A stretch of 64,000 bases of DNA from Lunularia cruciata (lineage: Eukaryota; Streptophyta; Marchantiopsida; Lunulariales; Lunulariaceae), in assembly GCA_948567375.1 (NCBI GenBank), contig OX419762.1, positions 36,747,034 through 36,811,033 of the forward strand, written 5' to 3'. The position numbers and the translations under genes were made by a program. Numbering within the stretch: the first letter of the stretch is position 1; every line of letters begins with the position of its first letter. This document shows, piece after piece, positions 7,005 through 61,689 of the stretch. The notes beneath the pieces are model-generated. The model did not search any database, had not been told where the DNA came from, and saw nothing but the letters and a program-made list of their open reading frames with translations.

Positions 7005-8778
7005 TTGATGGCACAAAGGTCTTTGAGGATTGGGGCATCAATCTATAGAGTCATAGTTATAATCACTAACACCACCAACACTTCACATTCACATACACCA
7101 TCTTCTTATTATTGGGAATCAGATTCAAAAGAAGGAGCTTCAGGTGTGGACATAAGCATGGAGGAGGAGAATTCCACGGAGGAGGATGAATCTGAATTTG
7201 ATTCATATGTGTATCCCTTGTGTGCTATGGATTTTGCACCTAAGCCAGAGGTTTTGAAGGACCTAGATAAATCACAATTGACACTTGAGGAAATAGAGAG
7301 GAGGTTATCTACCTTCAAATATGGCCCAAATGTTACCAAGGAGGAGAAGGTGAGATTTGGAGAGAGTTTCTGCAAGTTCATCCACATGTTTGCTTTTAGT
7401 TACAAGGATCCAAAGGAAGTCACCTTGGAGGAGCATAAGATAGAGGTGGAGTCATATGCAAGACAAAAGCAACATTCCATTAGCCCACCAATAGCTTTGG
7501 TTGTGAAGGAGGAGATGGATAAGCTCAAGGAGGTTGGATTTATCTTTGAGGTGGAGAATTCAAAATGTGTGTTTCTAATTGTGATTGTGAAGGAAAAGTA
7601 TGGCAACCTTTGGGTATGTACAAATTACAAGATTATGTGTGGGTTGTTACAAAGAAGGACTACTTCCCATTACCATTCATTGATGAGATCTTGGAGGAGG
7701 TTGCAAGTCATGAGAGGTATAGTTTTGGAGATGGTTATAATGGATATAACCAAATCAAGATTGCACTAGAGCATCAATAACTCACCACATTCACCACTTT
7801 CAAGGGCATGCCTTTTGGACTTTGCAATGCTCCAGCCCCATTCCAATGGTCCATGCATAAGGTATTTGAACCTTTCATTGGGAAATTTTTGTGATACTTC
7901 ATTAATGACTTTTGTGTCTATGGGAGTAAGGAGGAGCACTTTGAGCACCTAATCAAGATCTTGCAATACTTGGATGAAGAGAATATATCACTCAACCTAG
8001 AGAAGTGCTCTTTTGGATGTGAAGAAGGTCTACTTTTGGGGCACATCATCTCCAAGGATGGAATAGCAATTGAACATGAAAAGATGAGGAAAATCTTAGA
8101 CCTTCCATTGCCTTCAAGCTTGAAAAAGTTATGCCAATTCTTGGAGATGGTTGGGTACTATAGGAGGTTCATCTTCTCATTTTCCAACAAGGTTTATGCA
8201 TTGACCATCTACATGAAGAAGGGTGTAGATTACATGGTGATTTTGGAAGACAAGGAGACTCTTAAAGTTTTTGAGGAGTTCAAGCAATCCCTTGTTGTAG
8301 CTTCAATTCTTGCTAAACCTGATTGCAGTAAGCCTTTCATCCTCTATATTGATGCTTCTAATGTAGCTATAGGATGCACTCTTAGCCAATTGGACCAAGA
8401 TGGGCATGATCATCCAATAGCTTATGCTAGTAGACAGATGGTTTTAGTAAAAAATAATTACTCTATTACGTAGAGAGAAGTGTTGGTAGTGATCTTTGGT
8501 CTAAAGAAGTTTAGACACTACTTGATTGCAGGGAAAGTCACCATTATCGTAGATCACAAGGCTTTGAAGTACGTCTTCAACAAGCCTTATGTGGAAGGGA
8601 AGCTAGCAAGGTGAATGATACTCTTGTCTGAGTATGACTACACCATTGAGGATAGGTCAGAGATGAAATATGCAAATTTTGATTTGTTATCTAGTGCTTA
8701 TGATCATGATAGAGATGAGCCAATGGATGATTCCTTCCCAGATGAGGAGCTCATGACAATCTTAGTCACTCAAGAGGT
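7005..8778 (+). pseudogene. reverse transcriptase and RNase H of element C
   Basis: From about 7,480 the frames read as Ty3 RT: 'EEMDKLKEVGFI', 'KKDYFPLPFIDEILEEV', 'FKGMPFGLCNAP'. The catalytic box appears as 'YFINDF' near 7,898 instead of a Y-x-D-D form. 'CSFGCEEGLLLGHIISKDG' and the RNase H start 'FILYIDASNVAIGC' (about 8,336) follow, then 'EGKLAR', a stop, and 'EYDYTIEDRS'. Frameshifts and stops are frequent. The frame runs to 8,778 and is cut by element D; it resumes at 18,493. Confidence 0.85.
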
Positions 8779-9230
8779 TGTCACGCCATTTGTAGTGTTG
8801 CATCTAGATTGCTCAGACACTAGAGTTTTAGTGATAGTAGTTAGAGTTATTTTTGTAGTATCTTAGAGACTACTTTCCGATGGTCAGATTTGGTGTTTGG
8901 GGTACTGATTTCACGGTGGGGCCCACCGTCACTTTGCATCGTTTGCACCGTCGAGTGTGCCATCAGTGGGACCATTTGGGTTTTAGAGCTAGCTCAAGTC
9001 CAGGGGGTATAGTTTTGAAGTGAGCTTGAGAGAGCTCACTTCTCTGATGTTGAGCCTTCGAGTTCCTGGTTATGGTGGACAGAGGCCGGTGAGCGTCACC
9101 TGGATTCTCTATGCTTGAGTGGGTGTGGCTTGACTATTAACAGTGCCCAGTTGTTGGCAGTTTATAGAGTGACAAATCAAGTACTGATCTGAGTTGAGTT
9201 GAGTTGAGAGTGGTAAGCAATCTGATTACA
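8779..9230 (+). repeat. 5' partial LTR of element D
   Basis: This segment aligns with 17,941-18,386 through to the AATCTGATTA end. It lacks the first ~112 bp (TGTGGGACTTTAG...) that begin the downstream LTR. It ends CTGATTACA and is followed by TCAGAG, which may be a remnant of an initiator-Met primer-binding site. A GAGTTGAGTTGAGTTGAGAG short repeat lies near 9,190-9,211. Confidence 0.8.
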
Positions 9231-10380
9231 TCAGAGAAGTGAAGTCAAAGGGAAATCGGGTGCAGGAACTTTGAGTGTTGGTGGTATCTCCAAACTCGGT
9301 GGATCATTGGTAGCTCGATTCAAGTTCAATGTTTCTCTAGTGTGCAGAAGCTCATTTGATTGATACAAATTTGGCAGTTAGGCGGACGGTGTGCGGAAGC
9401 GCTGGCCAAATTTCGAGTAAAGAAGGAGCAAATTTTGAGCAGTGGTTGTGATTTTGAGCTCAAGAGGTGAAGGTAAGACCAATTTGCTGCGAGTTGGGCT
9501 CAAAAAGTCAAATTGAAGCTGGAGTTGTGAAGCTATTCTCATGAATTTGTGATTTGGAGAAACTTGTGTTGTCAATTTGGCTCGAGTGGAAAGTTAGCTA
9601 GGGATTTGGTGGACAACCAACTTTAGGGTTTACGTCAGATTTTGGTTGGGATTTACGTTAGATTTTGGCCAGATTTGGAGGAGTTTTGCTGTTTTGAGGC
9701 TTCAAGGCATAGGGCTATGAGAGGCTACAAAGGCCTAGAAGGGCTTGCAAGCCAGCTTGCTGGCGTGAGGCTAGCTAGTTTAGAGTAGATCTTGGTCATT
9801 GGTTGGCAAAATCTGCCTTTCATGCTAGATTGTGCGCAATAGGGTTTGACCCCTAGATCTCTTGTTAGTAGACTAGTGCCCTAGCCAACTGGTCCACCCT
9901 CACTTGTTGTCCTAGTGATTGTGCCACTAGAGTGGCAGAGTCAGTCCCGTGTGTCGGCAGAGTCAGTCTCGTGTTGTATGGCAGAGTCAGTCCCGTGTTG
10001 TGTTATGAGATGAAGGGTTTTTGTTTAGATTTCATGTGATTGGACCCCCTCCATTCTCTGCTTCTTGTTTGTGCACCATGTTGTGTGAGGTGCCCTGACT
10101 TTTGAGCGTTGGTGCTTTTGGTGTGCTCTCAATGGTGAGGCTAGAGTGATGACCAGTCCGACTACCTTTGTTTCTCTCCGAAGAGGCAGGAAGTGATGAC
10201 CTACAGACCGTGAAAGTGCGTGTTATGATGGCAGGTTACAAGTTGCTCTTTCCCCTAGTGTAGTTATCTTGGTTAGAGTTACATCAGTGGGTGGTGCTTA
10301 GTTGGTATTGGCACATGGTGGTGTTGGCACTTGCGGTTGCAATTGGTGGTTTGGGTTTGCTATTGTGGTTATTTTGTCAC
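9231..10380 (+). other. leader region of element D
   Basis: No convincing coding sequence is seen. A short direct repeat (GGCAGAGTCAGTC-type, three copies) lies near 9,934-9,990. Position between LTR and gag suggests an untranslated leader. Confidence 0.5.
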
Positions 10381-11660
10381 GATGGAGTTCTTTGGAGATT
10401 CTAGAGGAGTTAGCCCTACAGTATGCAATGGGTTTACTCGGAGTGGTGCTCGGTATCAGCCTGTATCTCAAGTCCCAATGAGGGAGGAGATTGACTCTGA
10501 GTTGGAGTTTGACAGAGGAGCTGATTCAGTTGAGAGTGCACTTGGTGTGTCCGCACCGTTGTTGTGGGACATGGATGAAATTTATGGGACCTCCAAAGGC
10601 CCTAGGCGTTACTCTAGTACAATGGATACCATTGAGTTGGATGACTTCATCCAAGAGTTCGATAGTTGGTGTGATTTGTAGCAGAGGTAGAACCCGACTT
10701 TGTTCACACCCTTCATGGCATGGAAGGGGTTGTTTCAGCACTTGGAGGGTCTGCCAATGGATGACTACCATGAGTTTAGGAGAACTCATTTGGAGGAGAT
10801 TGAGTTATGGAGACAGTATTGGTCTCCACACTATGTCTCCATCACTTCAGGCTTGGTGGCCAAGAGTAGATTGGTTGTACCTACGAGTTCTAGCTCAAGT
10901 AGTGTGGGTGGAGCTAGTGGAGGTGCACTAGCTGGTGATAGTGCTACTACGAGTGGAGGTACCGCTGTAGGAGGTGGTGTGGTATTGGGGTTTAACCCCA
11001 TGGTGGAGTTCTTCCTATGTTTGAGGCTGAATTACCTGGGAGTGCGGACTGACAAGTTAAGGAGCTTGCAAGAGTTCCAGCGAAAGGCTAGAGAGAGCCT
11101 ACGTGAGGCATACACTTGCATGAGGTGGTTGATTAGTTTCACTCAAGGAGTTACTGAGGGCCGGGCAGTCCAGTTTTGGTATGGGATATTGGAGAGAGAG
11201 TTACGACGTAGAGTTTGTGATGCTACGTTGTTGTAGGCTACTTTGCCTACTTTGGCAGTAGTCTTTGGTTTGGCTGAGCGTATTGAGCTCAACATGGTGG
11301 AGGAGAGAGTGGTGACATCTGGATTTGGTAGGGAGACCTCATCCACAGCTATGACTTCTTCTAGAGTGCAGTAGAGTGCACCATGCCCAGTTGGTTTTTG
11401 AGGACAGGGTGGACAGCCCAAATCCTATGGAGCGAGTAGAGGGCCTAGTGGAGTTAGACCCTTACCTTCATTTTTGGGTCAACAACAGCCAATGAGTGGT
11501 GGTGTTGCTTATTGGACTTGTGGTGGACCTCACCATCCAAGAGAGTGTACTCAAGGAAGTGGACCTGATACCTTGGGTGCATCACAGCCAACATAGAGGC
11601 AGTGTGAGCATTGCCACAGATTTGGTCACACTAGTGACCGGTGTTTTGACCTACACCCGG
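10331..11660 (+). pseudogene. gag region of element D with two zinc knuckles
   Basis: The frame at 10,331-10,681 and the frame at 10,700-11,236 ('LREAYTCMRWLISFTQG', 'AVQFWYGILERELRRRV') form a capsid-like stretch. Two CCHC boxes follow. At 11,509-11,547 the motif reads Tyr-Trp-Thr-Cys-Gly-Gly-Pro-His-His-Pro-Arg-Glu-Cys, with the first Cys changed to Tyr. At 11,603-11,644 it reads 'CEHCHRFGHTSDRC', a perfect C-x2-C-x4-H-x4-C. These bind retrotransposon RNA in related proteins. Frame changes and stops inactivate the region. Confidence 0.75.
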
Positions 11661-12181
11661 AGTTACGGAGTGGTCGGGCTGCTATGGCAGGTAGTAGAGG
11701 AGCTCCAGTTCATGGAGGACAAGGTGGTGTTAGAGGATCTACACCTAGTAGGGGTGCAGTACCTACCTTTACTTCTGACACAGCTATGGCTACTCGGATT
11801 GAGCCGTTGTAACAAAGAATGGCTAGTATGGCTATTGCTCAGAGGAGATCAGATTCGAGTGCTGAGGCTTCCACCTCATATGCAGGTGATAGAGATGCTT
11901 TGGACTTCATGTGCGGAGCAGCACAAGTGGATGCATCTACAGTAGTGACTAGGAGTGTAGTACGTGCTCCAAAGCCTAGAGGAGCATCAGTGGAGTTGGA
12001 CCCACAGAGAGAAGAGGTTGGGAGACAGGTCAGACTTCCCCAGTCTTTCATGCTATCTGATGCATTGTAGACAACATCCATGGTTCCTAGATGTCCCAGT
12101 GCAAGTGTGGTAGGTGGTGATGGAGTGCATGATGGACTACTTGCTAGTTAGCCACCTGCTACTACACAAACTGAGTCTAGC

Positions 12182-12679
12182 ATGATGTTGGGGGCGGCTC
12201 AGCTGATTATGCGGCGTCCTTTGTTTTTGGCCAATGATATGTTTACATTGGGAGTTGACCCAGCCCCAGTATTCCAATTGGCTGCCATGTTGTGTGAGAG
12301 TAGGGATGGTGCAGTTCCTACTACTAGAGCAGAGGTGGTTGGTAGTGGAGCTGACTTGGTTGAGGAGCATGGGATCCGTTCAGCGACCAGTGGTTTATGG
12401 CAAGCAACAACAGCTAGAATAGAGGAGTTGCTAGCTAGACCAGCCTTTGAGAGAGCATGGTTTACACTTGGTGTTGTCCTATTGGATAACCAGAGGGGGA
12501 TTTTTTGTTTGGTGGGACCTTCAAGGAAGGTCTATACACCATATAGAGTCTTGTTAGACTCTGGTTCACAGCCTCTTATGTTGGGGAAGGCTGCAGTTGT
12601 CGGTCTGGAGTTACGGAAGACCGATGTGGAGAGGTGTACATTTCAGATCCAGACATCTCTTGGTAGTGGTTCGACATAG
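12182..12679 (+). pseudogene. aspartic protease of element D
   Basis: The open frame contains 'YRVLLDSGSQPLMLGKAAV' at about 12,540-12,596, a retropepsin active site (Asp-Ser-Gly). It lies between gag and the methyltransferase region, which is the expected place for the protease in a Ty3 polyprotein. A TAG near 12,677 ends the frame. The role would have been polyprotein cleavage. Confidence 0.75.
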
Positions 12680-12739
12680 TACATCATACATGGAGAGCTT
12701 GTTGTCTAGGTTTAGCCTGGTCATCTGATTGATAGCTCG

Positions 12740-13240
12740 GTGGTGAGAGCTCAGGCTATTGCGACAATAGCTGAGTCATATGATACCCCATATGTGTTAT
12801 ACCCCATGGGTTTCAGCATTGACTATTGGGAGGAGACAGCCTCTTATAGACCTGGTTGGCAGTCTGGTGAGGGACGGGTATGTTGCCTACCAATACGCTT
12901 CAGTAGTGGCAGTCTTGGCTCACTACAGTTTGGGACCATGGCAACATCAGTTTTAGCTTTTAGTGGTGCAGTTACTTGGCCTGGTGACTTGTTGGAGAGG
13001 AATGCCCATGCAGAGGATACTCCAATACCAGAGGAGATCACTCGGCTTTGGAGTACAAGTGGGATTGTTCCATCCACTTTGGATGTTCCATTGTGGAGTT
13101 TAGAGGAGGCATTGTAGCAGCATGCATATCAGTTGGTGCAGCAGGCTTGGAGTGAAGCCTTCGTACCATCAAGAGATGAGTGTGAGGATGAGCCTCTAGA
13201 GGCAATTGCTTTGACACCTCTGGATACCATACTCATTGCT
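12740..13240 (+). pseudogene. linker between protease and methyltransferase in element D
   Basis: The frame 12,740-13,117 and the continuing frame from 13,133 encode sequence with no family I recognise ('YVLYPMGFSIDYWEE', 'EEITRLWSTSGIVPSTLDVPLW'). It runs on toward the methyltransferase and is probably part of the same polyprotein. Confidence 0.5.
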
Positions 13241-13247
13241 TGGCATT

Positions 13248-14230
13248 ATCCGGTAGAGGGAATATGCCTATTGGAGTTGTTTGGTAGGATCAGCACCGGA
13301 CTAGCTGTGGTGTTACAGGCGGGTAAACGAGTACAAAGGTACTTGTATGTAGAGAGAGATGAGATTGCTAGGCAAGTCTCCTACATCATGTGGCACACTT
13401 GGCCTATCGGTATCCGGATTTATTATTGATGTCAGCAGTCAGAGGTTACCAGAAGGCCCTAGAGGAGACATTTCCATATTGGGGGCGCATGACCTAGAGA
13501 GACATGGGCCTATTCACTTGGTGATTTCTGGATGGCCATGTTAGGGACATACACATGCTGGTAGAGGATTGGGTCTTCAAGATCCTTGTTTTGGTGTGTT
13601 TTGGGAGATGTTACGGATACTATGACATCTCCAGGTTCATCAGTCTATTTCTCCAGTTTACCTTTTGGAGAATGTTCCTTTGATGGGTGATTCTTGCACT
13701 AGAGTGGTGGGGAGTACACATCAAGTCCATTCTTGGATGGGACCTGCTGTATTGTTAGATGCAACCAGAGTGGGATCATAGGCTCATTGTCTTTGTCTTT
13801 GGTGGACGAACCTCTTATCCAAAGAGGTTCTACAGCGCGCTTATGATGGGATTCAGCGACTTGACCACATCCTTGTTGATGATATCTTGGATGTTGGGCG
13901 TTAGTCTCATACAGTGGTAGTGGCTGATAGGTCACCTATGGCAATGGTGAACCTAGTTGGACAGCCTAGAGCTACATTTCCCACACTCATGAGTTTCCTA
14001 GGCTCTCATGCTTTTTGAGAGGGAGGACTTGGACTTGTTTGGGACTCATAGTTACAGTAGTTGGTGGAGCCCAACGCTAATGAGAGAAAGCGGGCAATGG
14101 GTTTTTGCACCGGTACTACCGCTGTTCCAGCAATGTCAGAGGCATCCAGGTGTCAGGTGTTAGGTCAGGCTATGGACCTAACTGTTTGAACTGGATTGTG
14201 AGCCTTGGCTTGGCAAAGCAGCATAGGATG
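13248..14230 (+). pseudogene. C5-cytosine DNA methyltransferase domain inside Ty3 element D
   Basis: Motifs in family order: motif I 'CLLELFGRISTGLA' (13,265-13,306; S-adenosylmethionine binding); motif IV 'GPIHLVISGWPC' with the catalytic Cys codon at 13,539-13,541, followed by TAG where Gln of Pro-Cys-Gln is usual; motif VI 'YLLENVP' near 13,659-13,679; a motif VIII-like region before 'LWWTN' near 13,797-13,811; and C-terminal 'KRAMGF' and 'QVLGQAMDL' (about 14,090-14,180), resembling motifs IX-X. A frame change lies near 13,385. In the main frame I read five TAG, three TGA and no TAA. The enzyme would have methylated cytosine in DNA. It lies between protease and RT, so it was made as part of the polyprotein. 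Methyltransferase-bearing retrotransposons have been reported in a charophyte alga and dinoflagellates. Confidence 0.88.
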
Positions 14231-14259
14231 CACTTGATAGGCATCACCACTCGAACACT

Positions 14260-14680
14260 TGTGAGCCCTGTGCCTATCGAGACAATTCAGGCACATGCTG
14301 GGGGCGATGGACCGAGTGGACATGGTATTCTTGGGACACAATCTGTAGCTACTAGGGAGAGTGGTCTACTTGGAGTCCATCCAAGTGAGCGTGGACTACT
14401 TGGATTACACCCTTGGTCCACAAGGGATGTAGCTAGAGGACGTGTGGAGCTTGCAGCCAGAGTGGAGGGAGTTTTTCACACAGAGGTTGGGACCTCTAGT
14501 GGTCGGGAGCATGACACTATTGCTCCCAAGGGCCCAGTGTAGCAGCCAATTAGTCCGTCTTCCATTCCTACTACAGTTACAGAGGATACTTGGGAGTCAG
14601 ATCTTGGACCCAAGCTTATTGGAGAGGAAAGACGTAGGGTTTGGAGGTTCTTGAGGAGTCACACGAGTTAATTTGCCTTC
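14260..14680 (+). pseudogene. linker between methyltransferase and RT in element D
   Basis: Two overlapping frames (14,105-14,542 and 14,442-14,654) carry a short repeated phrase, 'SGLLGVHPSERGLLGLHP'. No known domain is seen. It is probably polyprotein spacer. Confidence 0.45.
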
Positions 14681-15545
14681 AGTATGAAGGATTTGGGTGC
14701 TCTAAAGGGACCTGGTATACGGATTGAGCTAACTAGCGACACACCAGTTTTCTGACATCCTTATTGATATAGTGATATGGAGAGGACATTGATTTAGAGC
14801 CGGAGAAGTGACCTTTTTGAAGCTGGTTTGGTGGAGACTTCACATGGAGAGTAAGCATCAGCGACAGTGATGCCAGCCAAGAAGGATATGGATGGCAACT
14901 ATATAGATAGGCGGATGTGTGGAGATTACCGTCCTATCAACCGATAGACCAGGGCTGATCGGTTTGCCATGCCTACACCGGAGGAGATTTTTGATGTGAT
15001 TGGGCATGCAAAGATCTTTAGTACTTTGGATCTTTGAGTGGGATATCATCAATTACCAATCAAGGAGGAGGATAAGACCAAGATAGCATTTTGGGCTATT
15101 GATCCTCATGGCAAGGATGTGTTATATCAATGGAGGTTCTTACCATTTGGGTTAAAGAACGCTCTTGCTGAGTTCCACATGGTCATGGATAGGATCGTAG
15201 CTGGATTGGATTTTGCTCGGTGCTATATTGATGGCATTTTGGTTTATAGCACTACTATGGAAGAGCATGAGAGACAGTTGTTAGAGGTGTTTGAGAGGTT
15301 GAGATCTCATGGACTCAAATTACATCCTGGGAAGTGTAGGTTCTTCCACGAGCATATTGAGTATTTGGGTCACACTATCTACCGCGGAGGACTTGGTGTT
15401 CAGCAGACCAAGGTGGAAGCTATTGCACGTATTCCTTGGCCTACGGATGTGAGCACAATGCAAGCACAATGCGAGCATTCCTTGGGTTGGAAAACTTCTA
15501 TTGCCGCTATGTTAGAGGATTTAGTGCTATTGCCAAGGCCTTGAC
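14680..15545 (+). pseudogene. reverse transcriptase of element D
   Basis: The sequence reads 'SMKDLGALKGPGIRIEL', 'MCGDYRPINR', 'FSTLDL', then 'GYHQLPIKEEDKTKIAFW', 'QWRFLPFGLKNA', 'RCYIDGILVYS', 'GLKLHPGKCRFF' and 'YLGHTIY'. These are Ty3 RT blocks. The catalytic Tyr-Ile-Asp-Asp box reads Tyr-Ile-Asp-Gly at about 15,223-15,234. Stops occur at about 14,945 (TAG) and 15,036 (TGA). The frame shifts near 15,450. It would have copied element RNA into DNA. Confidence 0.88.
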
Positions 15546-16045
15546 AAAGCTGACCAAGCTTACACAGGAGTGGTGTTGGGGAGATGAGCAGGAGAGAGCT
15601 TTTGTAGAGCTCAAGGAGAGGTTGACATCTGCTCCTATTTTGAGGAGACCAATCAAGGGATGACCATTTCAGGTTCACACTGATTGGAGTATGTTGGGGC
15701 TTGGAACGATGCTCACCCAACATGATGATGAGGGGAAGGAGTTTGTGGTGGCCTATGCTAGTTGCTCCAACAATTCAGCAGAGGCGAAGTATAGTTCATA
15801 TGAGGGAGAGTGCTTGGCAGCAATTTGGGCAGTAGCACATTTCCAATGTTACCTATTTGGTAACCCCTTCACTCTAACCATTGATCATTAGCCACTAAAG
15901 TGGTTGATGGAGTCCGACAAGCTTTCATGGAAGCTTGCACAATGGGCACTAATTTTACAAGAGTATGATTTCACGATTGTTCATAGACCTAGAGTGGTGA
16001 ATCGTGATGCAGATGGATTGAGTAGAAACCCATGTCCCAACCAGT
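15545..16045 (+). pseudogene. RNase H domain of element D
   Basis: Reads 'LTSAPILRRPIKG', then 'GLGTMLTQHDDEGKEFVVAYAS', 'YEGECLAAIWAVAHFQCYLFG' and 'FTLTIDH', a stop (TAG), and 'PLKWLMESDKLSWKLAQW'. It ends 'HRPRVVNRDADGLSR'. These are Ty3 RNase H signatures. It would have degraded the RNA strand of the RNA-DNA hybrid. Confidence 0.85.
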
Positions 16046-16254
16046 AGGATCAGACCGGAGCACGTTGGCATGGTGAGACAGATGAGGAGATGGTGCCAGG
16101 TTGGCATGCATCGGCCCTTCTATGTACATTTGTAGAGGCTTTGGTGGTATCTCTCTCAATGCATACAAGAGGAGTTATTGAGGTCATAGATCTAGAGAGT
16201 GAAGATATTGGTACAGTTCAGCAAGACATTCATGATGATGTCTAAGTGATGGAC

Positions 16255-17480
16255 TATCTTCACACTGCTATTGTGGGTGGCACAGTTGGGGCCAAGGAGA
16301 GAGACCATGTTCTTCAGCGGGCCAGACAGTTCAGATTGGAGGGTAGACATCTTTTGCGTGTATGGGAGGATGGTAGAGTGTGAGTAGTACCCCTTCCATC
16401 TCAGAGACCACAATTGGTCTGTCATGCTCATGAGGAGCTAGGACATTTTGGAGTAAAGCGTACATATAGCTTACTCCAAAGTCAGTATTGGTGGTGCGGT
16501 ATGCAAACTGAGGTACAGCAGTTTGTTCCCAGATGTGTGGTTTGTGACCAAGTTAGAGCATCATTCAATGCTCCTACGCCATAGTTACACCCATTACCTA
16601 TCATGGGATTGGGTTACCATTGGAGTTTGGACTTTGCCGGACCTTTACCGCTGACTGTGAGACATCATCGGTATGTTTTGGTGATGGTGGAGCACTTCTC
16701 CAAGTGGATTGAGTTGGTGGCACTTCCTGACAAAGTCTAGTGAAGGGACAACTTACTCATTCTTGGATCAAGTTCTTAGTCATTTTGGTGCACCAGCTGA
16801 GGTTTTGAATGATCATGGTACAGAGTTCTTGGGGGAGTTTCAGGTCTTGTATGACAAGGCCTTGATTGATCATCGTACTACATCCCGAGATCACTCTGAG
16901 GCAAATGCCTTAGCAGAGAGAGTGGTTCAGACGGTGAAGAGAGGATTGTGAAAGTATGGTTTGCAGAGAGGCCACTTGGGAGATTGGGATCTCCAATTAC
17001 CTTGGTTGGCCATGGGCTATCAGTTCAGCCGGAAAGCCTCCTTAGCATCCTTCTCTCCATACTTTCTACTCTATGGACAAGATCCAGATTTACCTACAGC
17101 CATTTGTCAAGATGCTAGTGTACTTTTGGACTTGGATGACCCCGATGTATGGATGAACGCATGTTCTCAACGGGTAGAGATCTTTTGGAGAGTGATGCCG
17201 ATGGTCTTTGAGAACTTGGCGATTGCTTAGCATAGAGATACTTTATGTTATGCTACCATTCAAGGAGGAGGTTATAGACCCTCGATCCGCTGATTTTCAT
17301 CCAGACGACTATGTATATCTACAGCAGACAGTACCGACAACACTTGATGTTTCTACAGGCCGCACTATCTTGAGAGTGCACAAGGTTTTGCCATCTAGAG
17401 TCCTTGTGTTAGAAGGACATGATGGTGTTGTTTGGAAAGATCATGTGCGCCCTGCCACCTCCCAAACATTGATGGTACTA
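16255..17480 (+). pseudogene. integrase of element D
   Basis: The zinc-binding region reads 'CHAHEELGHFGVKRTY', then 'FVPRCVVCDQ' (HHCC type, about 16,420-16,560). The catalytic core shows Asp in 'SLDFAGPLP' (about 16,625), Asp in 'LNDHGTEFLG' (about 16,806) and Glu in 'EANALAERVVQT' (about 16,899). 'LPWLAMGYQ' and 'SPYFLLYGQDPDLP' follow, then a C-terminal stretch to 'VVWKDHVRP'. Stops and at least one frameshift (near 16,735) inactivate it. It would have inserted element cDNA. Confidence 0.87.
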
Positions 17481-17655
17481 TGGACCCAAGCTTGGCACTT
17501 GTACGTGCAGGCTTGAGGTGTATGTTATGTGGCTCTTCTGGTGGAGCTGCTACTATGTTAATGTGTGATAGCTGTTCGAGAGGATGGCATATGGCATGTA
17601 TGACTCCTCCCCTCACGGTGGTTCCTCAAGGATAGTGGTTATGACCTAGATGTAC
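17432..17655 (+). pseudogene. PHD finger at the C-terminus of element D polyprotein
   Basis: After the integrase, a +1-shifted frame reads Cys-Met-Leu-Cys (17,519-17,530), then 'MLMCDSCSRGWHMACMTPP' and 'VPQG', a TAG, Trp-Leu, a TGA at 17,642-17,644 in the place of a metal-binding Cys, then Pro-Arg-Cys (17,651-17,653). This is the Cys4-His-Cys3 order of a PHD finger, a reader of histone tails. It sits where chromoviruses carry a chromodomain, so a targeting role is a reasonable inference. Two stops and the upstream frameshift show decay. Confidence 0.82.
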
Positions 17656-17828
17656 TTGACCTATAGCTAGTTCTTTTTTTATATAGTATAGAGTGTAGAC
17701 AGGCGACTAACGATGGGCCTCTATAGCACCCGGCCTCCTGATCTTTGCCCATTAGAGGGCATACCATATACTTAGAGTAGATGGCTATCTGGAGTTAGAG
17801 GGGCCTAACCGCCAGCTAGGGGGGCTAT

Positions 17829-18387
17829 TGTGGGACTTTAGAGTCTATGTATGACTCATGTGTGAGTTGTGCTTCTATAGTGTATGATGTTGACAGTGAT
17901 GTATGTTGTGTAGCGATGTATATACGCACGACAACTATCATGTCATTTGTAGTGTCGCATCAAGATTGCTCGGACACTGGAGTTCTAGTGATAGTAGTTA
18001 GAGTTATTTCAGCAATATCTCCGAGACTACTTTCCGACGGTCAGATTTGGTGTTCAGTGTACTGACTTCACGGTGTGGCCCACCGTCACTTTGCATTGTT
18101 TGCACTATCAAGTGTGCCATCAGCAAGTACCGTTCAGGTTTCAGAGCTAGCTCAAGTCCATGGGGTATAGTTTTGAAGTGAGCTCCAGAGAGCTCACTTC
18201 TCTGATGTTGAGCCTTCGAGTTCTTGGCTATGGTGGACAGAGGCTGGCGAGCATCACCTGGATTCTCTATGCTTGAGTGGGTGTGGCTTGACTGTAATCA
18301 ATGCCCAGTTGTGGGTAGTTTATAGAGTGACAGATCAAGTACTGATCTGAGTTGAGTTGAGTTGAGAGTGATAAACAATCTGATTAT
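17829..18387 (+). repeat. full-length LTR of element D
   Basis: Starts TGTGGGACTTTAG directly after an AGGGGGG tract (near 17,818-17,824) and ends at AATCTGATTAT. From 17,941 it aligns with 8,779-9,230. A TATATACGC / TATATAAGC box lies near the end of the first 105 bp. Confidence 0.78.
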
Positions 18388-18492
18388 TGTGGCACTTTAG
18401 AGTCTATGTATGACTTATGTGTGAGTTGTGCTTCTATAGTGTATGATGTTGACAGCAATGTATGTTGTGTAGCGATGTATATAAGCACGACA
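18388..18492 (+). repeat. 105-bp LTR start repeated after the full LTR of element D
   Basis: This stretch (TGTGGCACTTTAG to GCACGACA) repeats 17,829-17,933 with few differences. It abuts the full LTR, so two LTR starts lie in tandem. Joined conceptually with 8,779-9,230 it accounts for one further LTR, lacking only 7 bp (ACTATCA at 17,934-17,940). Confidence 0.82.
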
Positions 18493-19815
18493 AGGTTCCA
18501 ATGGAGTACAAGGAGATTGTGGATTTTGTGACAAGGGGTAACTACCATGAAAGGATACATGCTAGGGAGAGGAAGTCCCTTGTAGTAAGATCTAGACCTT
18601 ACACAATGGTGGATAATATTCTTTTCACCAAAGGGTAGATGGTCTATTTCAAAGAGCAATAGGTTATGAAGAGTCTATTCTACTCATAAAGGAGTTTCAT
18701 GAAGGTTTAGTGTGTGGAGGACACTTTGCATGAAAGGTGACTACTTTCAAGATTCTAGATGTAGGTTACCATTGGAGAGGTATTTTCAAGGATTGTCTTG
18801 ATTATTGAAAAACTTTTCATATTTGTCAAGCTTTTACTAGAAAGTTTACTTCCACTCAACCACGTAAATCAATTCCATTGCTAGGACCTTTTGAGAAGTG
18901 GGGAATTGATTTTGTAGGTCCTCTCAATAGAACTCCAAGGAACTATTGGTACATTGTTTTAGTTTCTGATTACCTTACCAAGAGGGTTGATACTAGACCA
19001 TTGAGGGACAAGAATGAAGATTCACTTGGTAGATTTCTTTATGAACACATTATCACTAGGTTCAAATGCCCTTAGGAGTAAGTTTTTGATAGAGGAGAAG
19101 AGTTTATAGGAAGCATAACTACAACCATGCTACAACATTCTCTATCACACATAGGTAATTACATCCTATAAGCCAAATTCCAATGGTTTGGTAGAGAGAA
19201 CCAATCAGACCCTGTGCATGATGTTGGCCAAAGATGCAAAAATGGAGGGAGCTAAACATCGTTAGGATAAGAGGATTCATGCAATTTTGTGGGAATATAG
19301 GACAACCATGAAGATTCCATCGGATATTCTTCATTTCAATTGGTATGTGGTATTGAGTCTACCTTACCTACTCATTTTGATCTTCCTACCTTCCAAAGCA
19401 TTCATGGGAGATTGATGAAAGCACAAGGAGATGATGCAAAGAAGTCAAGGAAAGATCAACTCATAGATTTGGAAGAAGCAAGAGCAGTTGTTTTGGTTTG
19501 AGTAGAGCAAGCTCAAAGGAAACAAAAGGAGAGCTATGACAAGAGGCCAGGCAAGAAAAAGGTGGAGCCTTTCAAAGAATGTGATTGGAAATGTTATTTG
19601 ATTCCATTTGATTCAAGAGAGTGCAAAAGAAGTTTTTGCCTAAGTAGTTTGGTTCTTTCATAGTGGAGAAGGTGTGGGACAATTACATCTATGATCTCAA
19701 GGAGTTGGGAGGAAGACACTCTGATAGGATTAACCATGATAAGTTGAAGATGTATCATAAGAGGAAGAGAGACCTTCACTTTGAGGACAAAGTGAAAACT
19801 TAGTCCGAGAGTAAA
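18493..19815 (+). pseudogene. integrase of element C, part resumed after D
   Basis: Reads 'EYKEIVDFVTRGNYHERIHARE' in part, then an HHCC-like region near 18,680-18,840 ('IKEFHEGLCGGHF', 'FHICQAFTRKFTST'). The catalytic core has Asp in 'WGIDFVGPLN' (18,900-18,929) and Asp in 'VFDRGEEFIG' (about 19,083), with later frames decayed. The tail reads 'QRKQKESYDKRPGKKKVE' and 'DKLKMYHKRKRDLHFED'. No chromodomain is seen before the 3' LTR. Confidence 0.8.
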
Positions 19816-20503
19816 TATAACACTCATTTGTGCATGTGTGGTATTGTGATATTTAGTTTGGTATAATAAATAATCAAGAGATATTCTTTATACAGAGATA
19901 AAGGATGGTTCTACATTAGTCATGATTAGCTAAAGTTAGTCATAGCTAAGATAGAGGAGACCTTACTTTAGAGGAAGTGAAAAAGATGAGCATCACTATT
20001 TTGGACTCTAGTGTGTTGACTTAATATTATTCCTAGGTGTTTGGCTTTGAGGAAAGAGTTGAGAACTCTTGGGTCCGCAAGCCATTTTGGTTTGGATTCT
20101 TCTACAATTCAAGGATAGCCCAATGTGAAGGAATCCTTAACTTAATAGTTGGGTCAAGATAAGATCACATGCTTAGGAGAATATTCCCATGAGTATTGAT
20201 ATTTCTTTAGCTTTTTGACTTTATTTGACTTTTAGCCTAGTAAGTTGAGTTACTCTAGTAATTAGTAACTTAGGTGCATAACTATTTCAAAAATATATAA
20301 ACAAGGGGTGAAGAGGTACTCATCATCCTTGAATTTGCCATTATCTCTCTCTCATTGAGTTCTCTAGTGAGCAATGTCTTGAGTCATGGAGTGTTAGCCT
20401 TGGAGGAGTATAATGAAGTTTGGGTTCCTTGCCTTCTTAGTCCATGGTGCACTACCATAATAGCCATCAGAGATCCATTTTGAGTGAGAGAGGCCGGCTC
20501 ACA
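19816..20503 (+). repeat. 3' LTR of element C
   Basis: Aligns along its full length with 3,187-3,872. It starts TATAACACTCATT (TG changed to TA) and ends GGCCGGCTCACA. A purine-rich GAGAGTAAA stretch precedes it. Confidence 0.88.
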
Positions 20504-21210
20504 TGACACCTTACTTCCATTGGTGGAATTTTTCTACAATAATTCAATGAATGCATGTACATAGGTCACACCATTCTTCATGTATAGAGAGTATCCTTTC
20601 ACACCCACAAGCTTGATGAAGATCTACTCAATGGCTTCTAAGGTTGACATTGTGAACTCATTTGTTTCTAGAATCCAACATGGTGTGGAGAATGCCAAGC
20701 ATAGATTCCAGATTGCCCAAAATTGACAAAACAGTACGAAAATGCACATTGCAAGCACATGGAGTTTAGCATTGGAGATCAAGTTTGTTTGTCTAAAACC
20801 AACCTCACATTAGTTGGCCCTTGTAAGCTCAAAACTCATTTTATTGGGCTTTTTCCCATCCTCCATCAAATTGGCACAATGTCCTATCACCTTGAGCTCC
20901 TACCAGCACACATTAAGATCCATCAAGTGTTCCATGTTTTTGTACTTTGTAGATATGCACTCCAACCACCCTACTTTCCTTCCATACAGGAAGTTAGACC
21001 TTGTCCAACACTCATTGATTGCACAAAAGAGTATGAAGTCAAACACATTCTCCAAAAATGCATCCAAGGTATCCACCATGCTTGTGTAGAATATCTTATA
21101 TATTGGAAAGGGTACCCATTGTATGAGGCAACATGGAAACCAACAAACAACTTCACCCATGTATTGGTGTTAGTGCAATCTTTTGAGCAATATCTTCACA
21201 ACTAGGACAT
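20504..21210 (+). pseudogene. integrase C-terminus and chromodomain of element B, part 2
   Basis: Continues the integrase left at 3,186: 'DTLLPLVEFFYNNSMNA', then a frame change near 20,724, then 'FSIGDQVCLSKTNLTL' and 'IKIHQVFHVF'. The chromodomain follows as 'EYEVKHILQK' and 'YLIYWKGYPLYEATWKP' (about 21,030-21,150). Element B is therefore also a chromovirus, distinct in sequence from family A. Confidence 0.83.
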
Positions 21211-39300: not shown

Positions 39301-39799
39301 AACCCCTCACATCCCAACTCACATAAAAAAATAATCTTTTCAAACACTAAAATCTATAAGTTTTCATCACTTTCAATTTTCATCTCCAAAATTTTTAAAT
39401 TAAATTCACATGGAACTTAATCATGAAAACCGATAGCTTAGAAATGAAAATTCTTTACCCATCACTCTCAATGTATAATGATCACTCTAAACCCTAAAAA
39501 AATTGAAAATTTCATAACTTTCTATTCCATTGGGTGCTCGATTGGGGTTTTTTCCATCCTTCGTTGTTCATATGCGATTGCCTTTTTCTATCCTCAAACC
39601 TGCCAGCTATGACAAACTCCTGTCACCTACACGTCAGCATTTGGAATATTGTTAAGTCTTTTCTGTTTTCTGTGGGCCGAGCCCCATGTTATCTTATTAT
39701 GGTCTCTTTCTTGTACGATTCGATAGGGTCTTCCCATCCTTCGTTTTTCCTACGCGGTCGCCTTTTTCAATCTTTTCTGCGGACCTAGGGTGTCGTTAA
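39301..39799. other. noncoding region with palindrome-family half-units
   Basis: GGGCCGAGCCCCATGTTATC to CGCGGTCGCC (39,675-39,770) resembles the left/loop part of the palindrome at 35,930. A weaker copy is at 39,529-39,600. No gene was seen. Confidence 0.5.
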
Positions 39800-40996
39800 G
39801 TCTAAGTGCCAAAATTCAGATACTGTTAAGTCCTCTGTCCACAAACGTGTTCTGTCTTCCGCGACTATGTGGTTATGGTTGGACCGCATCACCTTTTTCG
39901 TTTGGTTCTTTGTCATCCGATCTTGAGTGAAATCAGTATTAAACGGGTATCGTTTCTTTTCCTCTTGGTCATATTCATCATATTTACAAATAAATTTCAC
40001 GACTTTGACAAAATTCACTATTTGCAAATTTTAATTTTATTTAATTTTCGTAAGTTCTAATTTTCACCTCTCTTTCGGTATTATAATGGATCATTCACTG
40101 ATGATTTTTAATCAATATTTATTCAAATGTTTATTCTGTACTTACACTTGTCAAAAATATATTTCTCCCACAGTCCATGTTATATGAGAGCTGACATGAT
40201 GTGCTCTTAGATAAACTTCCAAACTATTGGAGTTGCTAAGAAAAACTCCATTATTTTTTGGTTGTTGCATGAGAAATCACGATTCATCATGGAAAGAGAG
40301 ATCACGTACATTGTGTGCACGCTATCCTTATCATTTGCACAATAACTCCGAATATATGTCCTACAAAACCTGGGTTTTCGCTGGTTCTGGATCTATTTTC
40401 ACTGAGTTTCTTAGAACACCTTTGTTGAATCAATATCAATTCCGTCGATGGAAATGATAAAGAAATTTAGTATGAGAATGGAGACTAATTGTCATATCGT
40501 ACATTGTAGAATTAGAGTTGTCCTTTCTAGACGGAGAATTATCTTAATCTCTATCAATTGTTCACACGCCAACCTACAGTTGGTAGGATGGACACAGTTG
40601 ACGGTACAGTAGGAAGAGATACTGTAAATGTGGGTTTTCCGCCGTCTTTTGGTAATCAAGTAGAGGCCAGTACAAAACAGACCGTGGATTTGATAGACAA
40701 GGAGTGGACCAACTCATACACAAAAAAATCATATTTTCTTGAATTATTCATATTTTATTGTTCAGAAAAACGAGCACTGGTCTGTATCTGGGCTGTTCTT
40801 CCTGATTCTGTACCGTATTGCTACTTACAAGGAATTACAAGCAAGCGTCTAACCGTTGCACAATCCGTACGTAAGCTTTCAGCTAAAAAAGTAACGAGAG
40901 CTTTTCATGTACACTCAGCGAAAAGATTTGTGGATACGTTTCAAGCTATTTTCATTCCCACGTACAATGGTTTCCACATCTTGTTGATTGTTTCAG

Positions 40997-41255
40997 GACG
41001 AGGTTGATCTGCTGCTCCAGGACGTTGCTTACCATCTGCTCGTTATAGCAAACTTGGCCACTCCTATTGCAGTCGGCAATTAGAACTTTCGCGTATTTGA
41101 CCACTCCTGCTCGTCTACTTGCTCCCCTACTCTTGTTTTGACGAGACCTTCGAGGATAGATTTCCTAAATCGTTTGCGAAGCTTCCATGCCCTCAGTACC
41201 CTGAATGCGAGGAGTGGCAGAAGAATGCACACAAGTATGCACGAGACAATAATTA
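40997..41255 (+). pseudogene. NLR gene fragment in duplication copy 1
   Basis: A TTGTTTCAG acceptor is followed at 40,997-41,083 by sequence matching the start of exon 2 of the NLR gene (51,866 onward): 'DEVDLLLQDVAYHLLVIANLA' in place of 'GEVDSLLQDVRHHPLVLANLA'. A second match at 41,155-41,255 ('KSFAKL', 'YPECEEWQKNAHKYARD') corresponds to the exon 2 end (about 52,580-52,666). About 600 bp of exon is missing between. A TAG ends the first part. It is a truncated relative of the NLR, not a functional gene. Confidence 0.85.
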
Positions 41256-41840
41256 ATCTCCCCTATCCAATTTGCTGAATGAACGCCCAATACCGGGCTT
41301 AATATGACCAAGAGTAAAGGTCTGGCTCAACTTGATATTACTGTAGCATTTCTCTTGTATTCGTTATGTCGTTAGGACAAGGACCATGAGAGGTTCAGAA
41401 ATGAAGGTGTTTTCAGCAAATAAACATTTTATTAGATCTGTTTCTCATTGAAATTTATGCCTCTCAGAGCCTGAATAAAACCAGAGAGCCTGTGTCGTTC
41501 AATGCAGTGTCCAGGACAAGCAAGATTCACCTGTCGTCTGCCTCGTAAAATCCATCAACGTAGACCAATTCTGGCCTATTCAGTTTTCCTGCTTTGAGAA
41601 AATTGTCTAGTTTTCAATCGCAGAACATTCCTTGTTCCAATTCCGTTCAATCACATGATATACATCAGTACCTTAATGTCTCTGCGTTCTTTACAATTCA
41701 GCCTTGACTGCAATACTTTGAGACTTGTTTTACTTCGTCCCATCTTTCATCTCCTAGTGAGCATGAACGTGTGGTAGTTTCCCTACCCAACTTCCTGAGC
41801 TTCACTGATTTCGTTTAATCTCTGTCCTCACTACATGCAG

Positions 41841-42798
41841 GCCGGAAAGGCCTGTTTCAGGTGCGCAGGACGTGGAGGTGCCAGATAATCGATCTGTCAA
41901 GATCCAGAGTCCTGAACAGCAGCCTAAAAAATGGAAGCCGCCAGCAGGAAAACAAACGGTGATTGCAGAGAATACAAGTAATGCAGATGCTAAGTCGCAT
42001 AGTTCTAGTTTCCTGGATGTTAGCGCTGGAGTGGCATGGGTACTGATGTTTTCTTCTTCTTTATTATTCTTTACAAGAACTCTCTTCTTGTTGCTCACGT
42101 AGTATAGCTGTTTTGTTGGTGGATAGAGTTGTGACTAAAATTCCGTTTCTGCGCTGAAGGAAAGCTAGTGCACACCACTTTGTCCCGGCCGCTAGGCCAC
42201 CCAAGGCTCAGAGCTCCCAGACCTACTCATACTTTGAAGACTACTCAAAGTCTTACCTGTACAAAATCCACCACGATCAAATGAACCGCGTCCAAGGACT
42301 CTTTCACATAGTGCACGAACTTTTACCTCTCTATTCAGTGAAGATGACGGTGAGGAAGATCTCTTTGGTAGCGAATTTCCCAAGAAGCCGAGCGTCTTCA
42401 CGATTGGATCACTCCGGTTCGAGAGAGACAGTCTGCATTAAACTTCTCTTCTGATTTTCAGAGCAGGGGCCGAGGTGAAAGCAAAGGACGCTGATGTTAT
42501 TTCTGAAGCCATGAAACCTTCGCTAGCCCCATCCAAGGATCCAGTGTCAGTTTTGACCTGTGAAACAACTTAGAAGAAAGTGGGTGATGGCGATCTGTGG
42601 TCTGGAAACTCCACTGCTAAACTATCGTCGCTTCTATTTGGAGACGATGATACCGATAACGAAGATGCATTGTTTGGACCTCTCCGTGAGAAGTATTCAA
42701 GAGGAAGCAGTGATTGGTTAGCATCGACCTCATCTTTCTCCCCAGCAAAGAGCACCTCCGCTCGACGGATGGCAGGGAATTCTCTCTTTGGCGATTAG
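41841..42798 (+). pseudogene. relic with LF-acidic-LF motifs, WASHC2/FAM21-like, copy 1
   Basis: After a CTACATGCAG acceptor a frame reads 'DVEVPDNRSVKIQSPEQQ' and 'KKWKPPAGKQTV'. Another block reads 'SLFSEDDGEEDLFGSEFPKKP' in part (42,328-42,390). After a TCTGATTTTCAG acceptor near 42,460, a block reads 'LLFGDDDTDNEDALFG' (42,628-42,678) and ends 'NSLFGD' before TAG at 42,796. LF, acidic residues, LF is the signature repeat of the WASHC2/FAM21 tail, which binds retromer. A TAG at 42,571-42,573 interrupts the last block. Identification rests on two motifs only. An unrelated acidic protein remains possible. Confidence 0.5.
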
Positions 42799-43239
42799 AG
42801 TTTGTAACTGTGACCAACTATTTCATTGGTCACTGGCGTAGCTTCTTTTACTGGGACTTTTAGTGCCTATGCTAATTTAGAACGAACATTTTAGAAAATC
42901 GCTATACATTGGAGACGCACAGTCCCTTCAGCGGGTAGTCGGCTCGTATATTGCGTTGTAACAACCTCCTGGGAAATAGCGTAGTCATATCATCTTCCAT
43001 GTATAGTCCAATACGTGCCACAGAACACTAGGAAAATTTGCTGATTGATAGCACATTCATCCTACATACTTCACCTGAAGGTTATACCTACCACTATTGG
43101 AGTTGGATGAAGAAATTTCTTTCATTTAGGAAAAGACCGTGTAGAATGGAGGCTATGCACGTGCTCAGTCACCTCAGGAGATAAAAGGTAAAACTAGTGC
43201 TATATTTTCCGGAAAAAACGGAGTTTGGTTAGTCTTCTA

Positions 43240-44520
43240 TATTCATCAATTTCCATTGTTCACCACTAAGCAAGCCAGTAGAAGGGAGAAAGCTTACTCG
43301 GTTGCTAAGCGCCTTCCAAGCATTAGGATTCTTTATTAATCTGGTTCCACACTTGCCAAGAAACCGCACCCGCATCCCTAGGCCGCTGGTCGATTTCGGT
43401 GCGCTCGAAGCCCGATATCTTATGACAGTCACTGACTCACAAGTGGAAGCTTGGTAGCAGTGTGTGACTGGGAAAGGTACTCGCAGCTCGTGGGTATATT
43501 TGTCTACGACTTTACGCACGCCACCCTTGTGGCTGGGCGTTCTTAGTACCAGCGGAACGAAAAGCTATAGCGTCAAGAAAGTCGGTCGATGGGATGCGAA
43601 GGAGCGCTGGGACTAGAAACTGTCACGTACGGTCGCTAATCTTTATTTTGTTTATTCGGGTAAATGCCCCCGGGCCTTTCATCTATCGTTTAGAGCCCGG
43701 AGATTCGACGCAAACCCTTTCGGCCGAATGCTATGAGTTTAAAGGGAGAGATGCTACGCACTTTGTCTCAGAACTGTGTAATCCTGCGCACCTCTCAGCT
43801 TCCACACAGGCGGGCTACCTCTCGGTGCAGATATCGTTCATTGTACTGTAAGTGGAATCAAAGCCTCATGCAGCCCAGGGAGAATCTCTGTCTGATTTTC
43901 TTACGCATCATATTCTTAGGCACCGCCCCGATAGATACTCGATTATGGGTTGCCTGGAGAGTCGGATCGAATTGCACCATATCCGTGTGCTGAACGCGGT
44001 GGAATAGTTGGCTCCAGCACCTCTAAGCGAATCTACTGCTTCCTTGCCATGTACGGTCTCATCAGGAGACCCACGAGCCACCAATGCGACTCTATGCATG
44101 CTATATCGCTGGGTCAAACAGCGCCAGCCACCGTGTTTTCCAGGAGACGATAACGACACCGCTTGAGATGCTCCGTGACGATATCCATTGAACTGAGACG
44201 GCTTGCTTCTGAGAGATTCGGCCCGGCCAGAAACTGCTTGACTAGTTTCCCCGAACAATCCCTCCTGCTTTTGCAACTCACTCCGAAAAGACTTTCAATT
44301 TGATACCCATTTTATCAAAGTGTCAAGAAACATATAGTACAAAAACACCCATGCTCAAGTCTGCCACCTTTCGGTATAGATCACGATTACAGATTGGGCT
44401 TTTGCTTTTTGAGCTGTCCTTTAGCGGCATCGCGTCACTCAGCATCACTACAAAGCCACCCCGAAAGGAGGGATACGCGTTTACCAAGTAGAATCCTGGA
44501 CCTTCGCTATAATGTTGGAA
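43240..44520. other. GC-richer, possibly organelle-derived segment, copy 1
   Basis: Composition changes sharply to GC-richer sequence with CCCCCGGGCC and CTTTCGGCCG stretches. Several 60-120-codon frames are open on both strands but match no protein I know. At 43,601-43,638 the sequence GGAGC...AGAAACTGTCACGTACGGTC resembles domain V of plant mitochondrial group II introns. I suggest a nuclear copy of mitochondrial DNA, without certainty. Confidence 0.35.
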
Positions 44521-44734
44521 ACAGTGCCCCTACAAAGTAGGGGTTGCGCATTTCTGTGTATTCAAGATAATTGAACCAACAAGAGCCCGACTGCATGATG
44601 GGACAGGATCTTATGACCGTCACGGTTTCTTGCTCACCGGTCACCGCTCTGAATACCTTCGCAACTTAAATTCAACTTAAATCCGAAGGTTTTTGAATGG
44701 TACGTTACAGTTGGCACTACAGTTTGAAGAAAGA

Positions 44735-45625
44735 AAAAGGCGACGGGCCCAGGATAACAAGCACGGGAAGACCCCATCAATCAACCCCTACAAAGATGAG
44801 ACATAGGAGGTAAAATGAGGTTAATTCTCAATACCAGCAAGGAAGGTTCACCCTAAACCATATTATCTTCGTCGGGATTAACTAAAATTAAATAAATTAT
44901 AACAATTTCTGGAGTAATTGGAGTTCCATTTACTCCAGCAATGATGAACTCTATTGCTGGAGTAATTCGAACTCTTGGCAAAGGAGATAAATTTTGTAAT
45001 AGATATGAAGAAAATTAATTGTTCACAATGGCTAATACTAGTGAGGTGGTATATTGCCTTGTTACAAGGTGGCCTTTGGAAGCAGAGTAGTCCTATCAAG
45101 ATCATCTTCTACATTGTTCAACATGCGCACAAGTTTGTTGTTTGACAACCATAAAGGTTACATGCATCACCTGGAGGGTACATATTATATCCTGGGTCGA
45201 CTTGAATGAGGAATCTCATGAAAGTGTGTCTAGCTGAAAATGACAAAGACGAGTCCTATTTAGCTAGTACTATAAGACGAGAAATCTACTCCCTAATGGC
45301 AATCTGGAGAGTCGAGAAGGAAATAAACGGGGACTGAAAGAGAAATCCAGATTTGACAAGCATCACTTTTACCGGAACATGATTCCCTACCATGATCGCA
45401 CAAGCAGAACAGACGATTTATAAATTCTAATCTTATTCTTCGGACATCCTACATCTTGTCAAGGTGTCGTAGTTCTGATACATCTTAGGTGCCGTAGGGC
45501 GATTCCTCGTACAGATACTGTTGGGGCTAAGCCTCTTTTTACCCCCTATGTCTTTTCCTTGTACTGCTTGATGGCGTCTTCCCATCCTTCTTCGCTATCT
45601 TACGCGGTCCCCACTTTCACATCTT
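44735..45625. repeat. possible terminal-inverted-repeat element of the palindrome family
   Basis: About 95 bp at 44,735-44,830 (AAGGCGACGGGCCC to GGTAAAATGAGG) is an imperfect reverse complement of 45,528-45,620 (TTGGGGCTAAGCC to ACGCGGTCCCC). Both resemble halves of the palindrome at 35,930-36,091. This suggests an element of about 880 bp with inverted ends; no coding sequence is seen inside. Confidence 0.45.
44930..44965. repeat. perfect 13-bp hairpin, copy 1
   Basis: TTACTCCAGCAAT (44,930-44,942) and ATTGCTGGAGTAA (44,953-44,965) are exact reverse complements with a 10-nt loop. The same hairpin is preserved in copy 2. Confidence 0.85.
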
Positions 45626-59469: not shown

Positions 59470-59729
59470 GACGAGGTTGATCTGCTGCTCCAGGACGTTG
59501 CTTACCATCTGCTCGTTATAGCAAACTTGGCCACTCCTATTGCAGTCGGCAATTAGAACTTTCGCGTATTTGACCACTCCTGCTCGTCTACTTGCTCCCC
59601 TACTCTTGTTTTGACGAGACCTTCGAGGATAGATTTCCTAAATCGTTTGCGAAGCTTCCATGCCCTCAGTACCCTGAATGCGAGGAGTGGCAGAAGAATG
59701 CACACAAGTATGCACGAGACAATAATTAA
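59470..59729 (+). pseudogene. NLR gene fragment in duplication copy 2
   Basis: Same two blocks as in copy 1: a 3' splice site (TTGTTTCAG) then the exon 2 start (59,470-59,556), a replaced or deleted middle, and the exon 2 end (about 59,627-59,729). The stop after 'AVGN' is shared, so the damage predates the duplication. Confidence 0.85.
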
Positions 59730-61271: not shown

Positions 61272-61689
61272 AGTTTGTAACTATGACCAACTATTTCATT
61301 GGTCACTGACTTTTAGTGCCTATGCTAATTTAGAACTAACATTTTAGAAAATCGCTATACATTGGAGACGCACAGTCCCTTCAGCGGGTAGTCGGCTCGT
61401 ATATTGCGTTGTAACAACCTCCTGGGAAATAGCGTAGTCATATCATCTTCCATGTATAGTCCAATACGTACCACAGAACACTAGGAAAATTTGCTGATTG
61501 ATAGCACATTCATCCTACATACTTCACCTGAAGGTTATACCTACCACTATTGGAGTTGGATGAAGCAATTTCTCTCATTTGGAAAAAGACCGTGTAGAAT
61601 GGAGGCTATGCGCGGGCTCAGTCACCTCAGGAGATGAAAGGTAAAACGAATGCTATATTTTCCGGAAAACGGAGTTTGGTTAGTCTTCT

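Follow-up and report, generated by a model that had tools for sequence, protein, structure and literature searches.

Why would a plant retrotransposon carry a DNA methyltransferase? The question is raised by a 64,000-nucleotide stretch of the genome of the liverwort Lunularia cruciata (the window). A preliminary description, made from the letters alone, had placed a C5-cytosine methyltransferase between the protease and reverse transcriptase (RT) of a Ty3/gypsy polyprotein in what seemed to be a land plant. Both the placement and the host are confirmed. The methyltransferase lies in the Pol of a Ty3/gypsy element of 9,714 bases (window positions 8779-18492), after the protease motif and before RT. 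The full domain order is gag with a CCHC knuckle, protease-like motif, methyltransferase, RT, RNase H, integrase and PHD finger (Table 1), which contains the protease-RT-RNase H-integrase succession of Ty3/gypsy elements. The PHD finger and a set of split direct repeats are new beyond the preliminary description.

The window element is an old copy of a family that is abundant in L. cruciata. It is dead, because it carries many stops and because motif I and motif IV of its methyltransferase lie in different frames. It was apparently inserted within a chromodomain Gypsy element (PF00385; about 7649-21205), whose reading frame seems, by eye, to be unbroken across the insertion site. About 170 kb away, a sequence (L010; G000:C12:36933746-36937413) matches the 3' part of the element and its flank with 99.56% identity over 3,668 bases; this is a segmental duplication rather than a new insertion. 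Elsewhere in the window, 39795-45548 and 58283-64000 contain stretches of 97-99% identity repeated at a spacing of approximately 18.4-18.5 kb, a recent tandem or segmental duplication. An NB-ARC frame (50290-51429) followed by a long armadillo-repeat frame (52865-55375) is possibly a liverwort gene resembling immune receptors. Contig C74 of the genome encodes a plastid matK that is 100% identical, across 74% of the query, to an L. cruciata matK record of 367 aa. In the Lunularia plastid, a matK match (L079) includes one TGA and one TAA, and a 454-aa frame is open; a frameshift may lie close to the 5' end.

Table 1. Features of the methyltransferase-bearing element and its target site, in window coordinates
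Feature	Position	Strand	Remark
Left target-site duplication, AGGT	8775..8778	none	Identical to 18493-18496
A1, 5' terminal repeat (A alone, without B), begins TGTC	8779..9228	+	
Stretch after A1 at the expected primer-binding site	9229..9250	+	By eye, no canonical TGG tRNA site
gag region, broken; CCHC knuckle at 11603-11644	10382..11800	+	Boundaries judged by eye; no match in Pfam
Aspartic-protease-like motif LLDSGSQ	12551..12571	+	By eye; no Pfam family matched there
DNMT3-type C5-cytosine methyltransferase domain, with frameshifts and stops	13235..14230	+	
Reverse transcriptase	14912..15379	+	PF00078, E=1.7e-25
RNase H	15577..15966	+	PF17917/PF17919
DDE-type integrase, zinc-binding and core regions, in two pieces	16354..17101	+	P0046 integrase is 47% identical, E 1.5e-59
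PHD finger at the Pol C-terminus; end of finger damaged in this copy	17519..17653	+	PF00628, E 3e-10
Run resembling a polypurine tract, CTAGGGGGG, preceding B1	17816..17827	+	By eye
B1 repeat	17828..17933	+	
B1/A2 junction, GACA-NC-TNTC	17930..17939	none	Exact palindrome GACAGCTGTC not in this copy
A2 repeat	17936..18386	+	
B2 repeat, ending GACA	18387..18492	+	
Right target-site duplication, AGGT	18493..18496	none	Identical to 8775..8778

All of the methyltransferase motifs named earlier were located in the expected order: ELFGRISTG (13274-13300), ISGWPC (13524-13541), LLENVP (13662-13679), LWWTNL (13797-13814), RAMGF (14091-14105) and GQAMDL (14163-14180). Motifs I, IV (PC), VI (ENV), VIII and IX-X of C5-cytosine methyltransferases are represented in a domain that is broken in the window copy, spreading over three frames with nine stops in its longest segment. 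The profile comparison suggested at the outset does return PF00145 at E=1.3e-4 (in the frame of 13119, with stops read as X), at a score of 21.9 bits that falls short of the cut-off of 22. Among solved structures, the best matches are DNMT3A and DNMT3B (best E=5e-5). A relative (P0002) likewise matches DNMT3A best (6e-12), followed by 4onj (1.2e-8), a 'DNA methyltransferase' that we take to be tobacco DRM, and by DRM2 (1.6e-4). The linear order of the motifs and the proximity to DNMT3A/3B identify the domain as DNMT3 rather than DRM, with few reference sequences in the tree. In that tree of 23 rows, which supplies the phylogeny proposed in the preliminary description, 20 element methyltransferases form one clade against DNMT3A and the DNMT3-like and DRM-like genes of Lunularia; support is 100/100, with a long-branch warning for the host branches and host rows classed by eye.

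Marchantia, Riccia, Calypogeia and Sphagnum also encode relatives. The best match in a protein database search is a Sphagnum protein with PF00145, at E=2e-100. Of 1,573 candidates in this search, 32 were relatives with E no higher than 0.001, and a second search for longer proteins yielded 19 among 2,941; no protein named for Klebsormidium was among the matches of either. Identity to 12 Marchantia proteins is 50-61% across the domain, and two proteins from this genus (P0035 and P0042) show the same order of methyltransferase and RT as the Lunularia element. Viral contigs gave no match in one search and two distant loci with 23-24% identity in another. Judged from its motifs and relatives, the window block is a real DNMT3-type C5-cytosine methyltransferase domain in a Ty3/gypsy Pol. 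The lineage is real and large, and it is probably old; almost certainly it is a land-plant variant of DNMT3-bearing Gypsy elements.

The methyltransferase is a trait of the family. Of 20 well-preserved copies selected solely for their repeats, 19 contain it, so the block is not a peculiarity absent from other copies, as the preliminary description had allowed. RT is present in 19 of the same 20 copies, as fragments only in L078, while neither domain was found in the stretch taken for L064. Among these 19 methyltransferases, L062 and L078 are free of stops; the other 17 have a stop or a frame break. In the selection analysis, 19 copies out of 30 likewise carry stops, and few copies could therefore make the enzyme. 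Many of the stops are TGA or TAG where a relative has R or Q, as C-to-T decay after insertion would give. Conserved boxes persist among 30 copies, with GWPCQG kept in 28, LENVP, RAMGF and GQAMDLN in 27 each, and AHRLRLWW in 22.

Selection was assessed on 30 of 36 methyltransferase pieces considered, six having been dropped for no match or a split or short match; twelve fetched pieces (L080-L091) were chosen for long open frames, a possible source of sample bias. The median pairwise dN/dS is 0.41 (435 pairs). When all substitutions at shared sites are counted, omega for the methyltransferase is 0.45 in the true frame versus 0.42 and 0.65 in the shifted frames, which does not discriminate; for RT the values are 0.18 versus 0.49 and 0.61. 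Shared transversions in the methyltransferase comprise four nonsynonymous and six synonymous changes versus 1512:371 expected (omega 0.16, p 0.006), a test that has only ten shared changes and was chosen after the all-substitution result had been seen. The corresponding controls give 7:1 and 7:1 in the shifted frames and 46:8 for singletons. These few changes suggest that the methyltransferase was constrained before insertion and evolved neutrally afterward.

Decay was followed by comparing A1 with A2 in 18 copies, which show 312 differences, including 47 transversions. Changes of the C/T type affect 105 of 1184 CG sites, 96 of 1763 CHG sites and 64 of 4918 CHH sites. This excess at CG and CHG indicates that the copies were probably methylated in both contexts by the host, the element or both, and that carrying a methyltransferase gave no sparing from such decay. 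A1/A2 divergence ranges from 4/447 to 38/447 across 17 copies; the alignment for the window copy has 59 differences in 459 positions, some non-homologous end bases included.

The repeats themselves are arranged as A1 - internal - B1 A2 B2, such that A stands alone at the 5' end and B1-A2-B2 at the 3' end. A search of the genome (565.77 Mb in 74 contigs) with B1A2B2 gave 40 scored matches, all spanning approximately the whole query; these are the best-scoring 40 of 8,356 first-look candidates, not a random sample. Twenty copies were examined (L011-L030). B1A2B2 is present in every one and A without B is present at the 5' end of 17, whereas no A was found within the 3 kb fetched at the 5' side of the other three. 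Read by eye, 4-bp target duplications are exact in 15 of 17 copies and have one mismatch in two. No canonical tRNA site could be recognized by eye after A1, and a candidate 'iMet-like' primer site was not upheld.

Each element begins with TGTC and ends with GACA, and these ends face one another at the B1/A2 junction as GACA-NC-TNTC or close variants. The exact palindrome GACAGCTGTC occurs at this junction in 12 of the 29 copies listed, and the A2|B2 junction reads CTGATTA|TTGTGG in 28 of 29. Allowing up to two mismatches, the B1/A2 junction is found at 2,511 genomic sites (1262 + 1249), compared with none for a reversed control. Twenty sites were chosen solely for the B|A pattern out of the 100 exact matches listed first, which all lie on contig C1; one of them, L096, was left out. 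A and then B follow downstream in all 19 informative cases, and the primer-site sequence follows in none.

The complete LTR at each end that defines LTR retrotransposons is missing, and split repeats such as these belong to the DIRS order, where they are direct or inverted. DIRS elements use a tyrosine recombinase and, to our knowledge, make no target duplication; the Lunularia family instead has an integrase and 4-bp duplications. No recombinase family is among the Pfam matches of the pieces scanned, mostly in one frame only. A simple model of two-LTR circles predicts equal numbers of A-B-A-internal-B insertions and is rejected by the 19 of 19 B|A sites that have A then B instead. Simple inheritance of the DIRS type predicts separate A1 and A2 lines, but in 18 copies none of 430 columns differs in majority between them. 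Separate inheritance of A1 and A2 has thus left no trace, as expected under LTR-type reverse transcription; this support is limited by a mean A1-A2 distance of 0.040 within copies versus 0.049 between copies and by the partner repeat being nearest for only 4 of 36. Neither simple integration model explains all of the data.

The PHD finger provides a second unusual component of Pol. Of 30 copies (L009-L038), 23 retain its C4HC3 spacing, which lies shortly before the Pol stop codon; four of these (L016, L019, L030 and L036) have a stop codon inside the finger. The seven copies without the pattern include the window copy and its duplicate. Best structure matches by sequence include CHD4, KMT2D, PHF12 and PHF21A, and several of these fingers read unmodified H3K4. 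A linker preceding the finger resembles NCAPCHLP.ID in an alignment of environmental polyproteins. Among leading results in the open-licence literature, no report of PHD fingers in Gypsy Pol was found.

The explanation that we prefer, with a probability of about one half, combines self-methylation, PHD-guided integration and an integrase acting on circular or end-joined DNA. The methyltransferase would be made as part of Pol and would thus travel with RT and integrase. Its target for de novo methylation could be new element cDNA or a copy that has just been inserted. The PHD finger, at the tail of the integrase, would read histone H3 and place the insertion. Together, the two domains may re-create the pairing of DNMT3 with a histone reader. 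The integrase would insert DNA ending at the TGTC/GACA junction. Such ends differ from those made by ordinary reverse transcription, which makes circular or end-joined DNA the probable substrate. A more specific version is offered tentatively, at somewhat longer odds. A DDE integrase might cut the internal palindrome (GACA-GC-TGTC) of circular or end-joined DNA to give permuted split-repeat insertions with 4-bp duplications; the DNMT3 and PHD polyprotein might have arisen as a convergent counterpart to the DNMT3-ADD combination of animals; and the lineage might be an ancient streptophyte one, extending from algae to bryophytes.

Other roles for the enzyme are conceivable. It might act against the host by competing with or misdirecting methylation by host DNMT3, DRM and CMT, such that other copies escape silencing. 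The host does have its own DNMT3-like and DRM-like genes (L001 and L002; classed by eye), element junctions are abundant, and the main text of PMC9985172, from which 'methyltransferase' and 'DNMT' are absent, ascribes the size of the Lunularia genome to Ty3/Gypsy bursts. However, divergence within copies is mostly of the C-to-T type at CG and CHG, the signature of methylated copies, and a role of this kind is unlikely. There is also a low probability that the methyltransferase is a passenger that plays no part at present and that a recent burst happened to retain. Stops in many copies, the non-discriminating all-substitution test and the small, post hoc transversion test all leave room for a passenger. 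Set against these are the apparent constraint on shared transversions, the identity to Marchantia proteins, the near-universal presence among repeat-picked copies, and the many TGA and TAG stops that fit decay after insertion.

For the DNMTs of LINEs, de Mendoza et al. (main text of PMC5890265) suggested an RNA substrate; here this would be genomic RNA or primer tRNA. Such a role is improbable for the Lunularia enzyme, whose nearest solved relatives are DNMT3A and DNMT3B, with no DNMT2 among the matches listed; moreover, DNMT3s from retrotransposons of a dinoflagellate methylate CG DNA in yeast, according to the same text. The PF00145 score of the window copy, just below the curated cut-off, might suggest that the similarity is due to chance or that a host methyltransferase gene was inserted later as a separate event. 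Relatives at E 2e-100, the 19 of 20 copies and the position before RT in P0035 and P0042 led us to reject this reading, which has almost no probability left. The element itself can be set beside several known systems.

The closest of these is KnitGypsy-Dnmt3 from the charophyte Klebsormidium nitens (de Mendoza et al. 2018, PMC5890265), part of the 2018 findings in a charophyte alga and in dinoflagellates that the preliminary description correctly cited. As given in the main text of that paper, it is an LTR Gypsy element whose Pol ORF includes Dnmt3 with no rearrangement of domains, and it has DIRS-like repeats and purifying selection on the DNMT. Because it also joins Gypsy Pol, Dnmt3 and DIRS-like repeats, the Lunularia element is a land-plant variant of that type. 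It differs in its land-plant host and its 2,511 junction sites, and is set apart by description in its PHD finger, palindromic junction and 4-bp duplications; 'PHD' does not appear in the main text of PMC5890265. There, the isolated Klebsormidium Gypsy DNMT had no activity in yeast, a result that its authors call inconclusive. SymbioDIRS-Dnmt3 of Symbiodinium also has DNMT3 in a retroelement, but it belongs to the DIRS order and is, per the same main text, unrelated to the Gypsy element. The available text of PMC12344493 cites de Mendoza et al. for DNMT3 in streptophyte and dinoflagellate retrotransposons and names Copia and DIRS families.

Environmental Pol polyproteins (P0046-P0051) share RT, RNase H, a methyltransferase (36-39% identity) and an integrase zinc-binding or core domain with the Lunularia element, and their methyltransferases fall in one clade. 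Five of the six (P0046, P0047, P0049, P0050 and P0051) also have a PHD finger, and none is listed in P0048. Their methyltransferase lies between RNase H and integrase, unlike that of Lunularia between protease and RT. A single capture with later relocation is the simplest reading of this difference, short of proof. Plant host DNMT3 genes such as PpDNMT3b have the same DNMT3-type rather than DRM-type domain, but are described with a DUF3444 domain in the available text of PMC6453930, and the tree places the element methyltransferases apart from the Lunularia host gene.

Leading results in the open-licence literature, including those on split repeats, contained no report of methyltransferase-bearing Gypsy elements in land plants or bryophytes. 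Such elements, found there in one charophyte only, are now also known from land plants. With thousands of junction sites in a liverwort and relatives in other liverworts and Sphagnum, their role can be put to the test in land plants that are easy to work with (Marchantia). The same split direct repeats, A1 - B1 A2 B2, occur in PAT, Ngaro and VIPER elements, which use a tyrosine recombinase (available text of PMC6681497), whereas the Lunularia family combines them with a DDE integrase and 4-bp duplications. Split repeats in this company challenge the rule that ties them to tyrosine recombinases, and the insertions that carry them are relevant to the question of whether circular DNA can serve as an integrase substrate.
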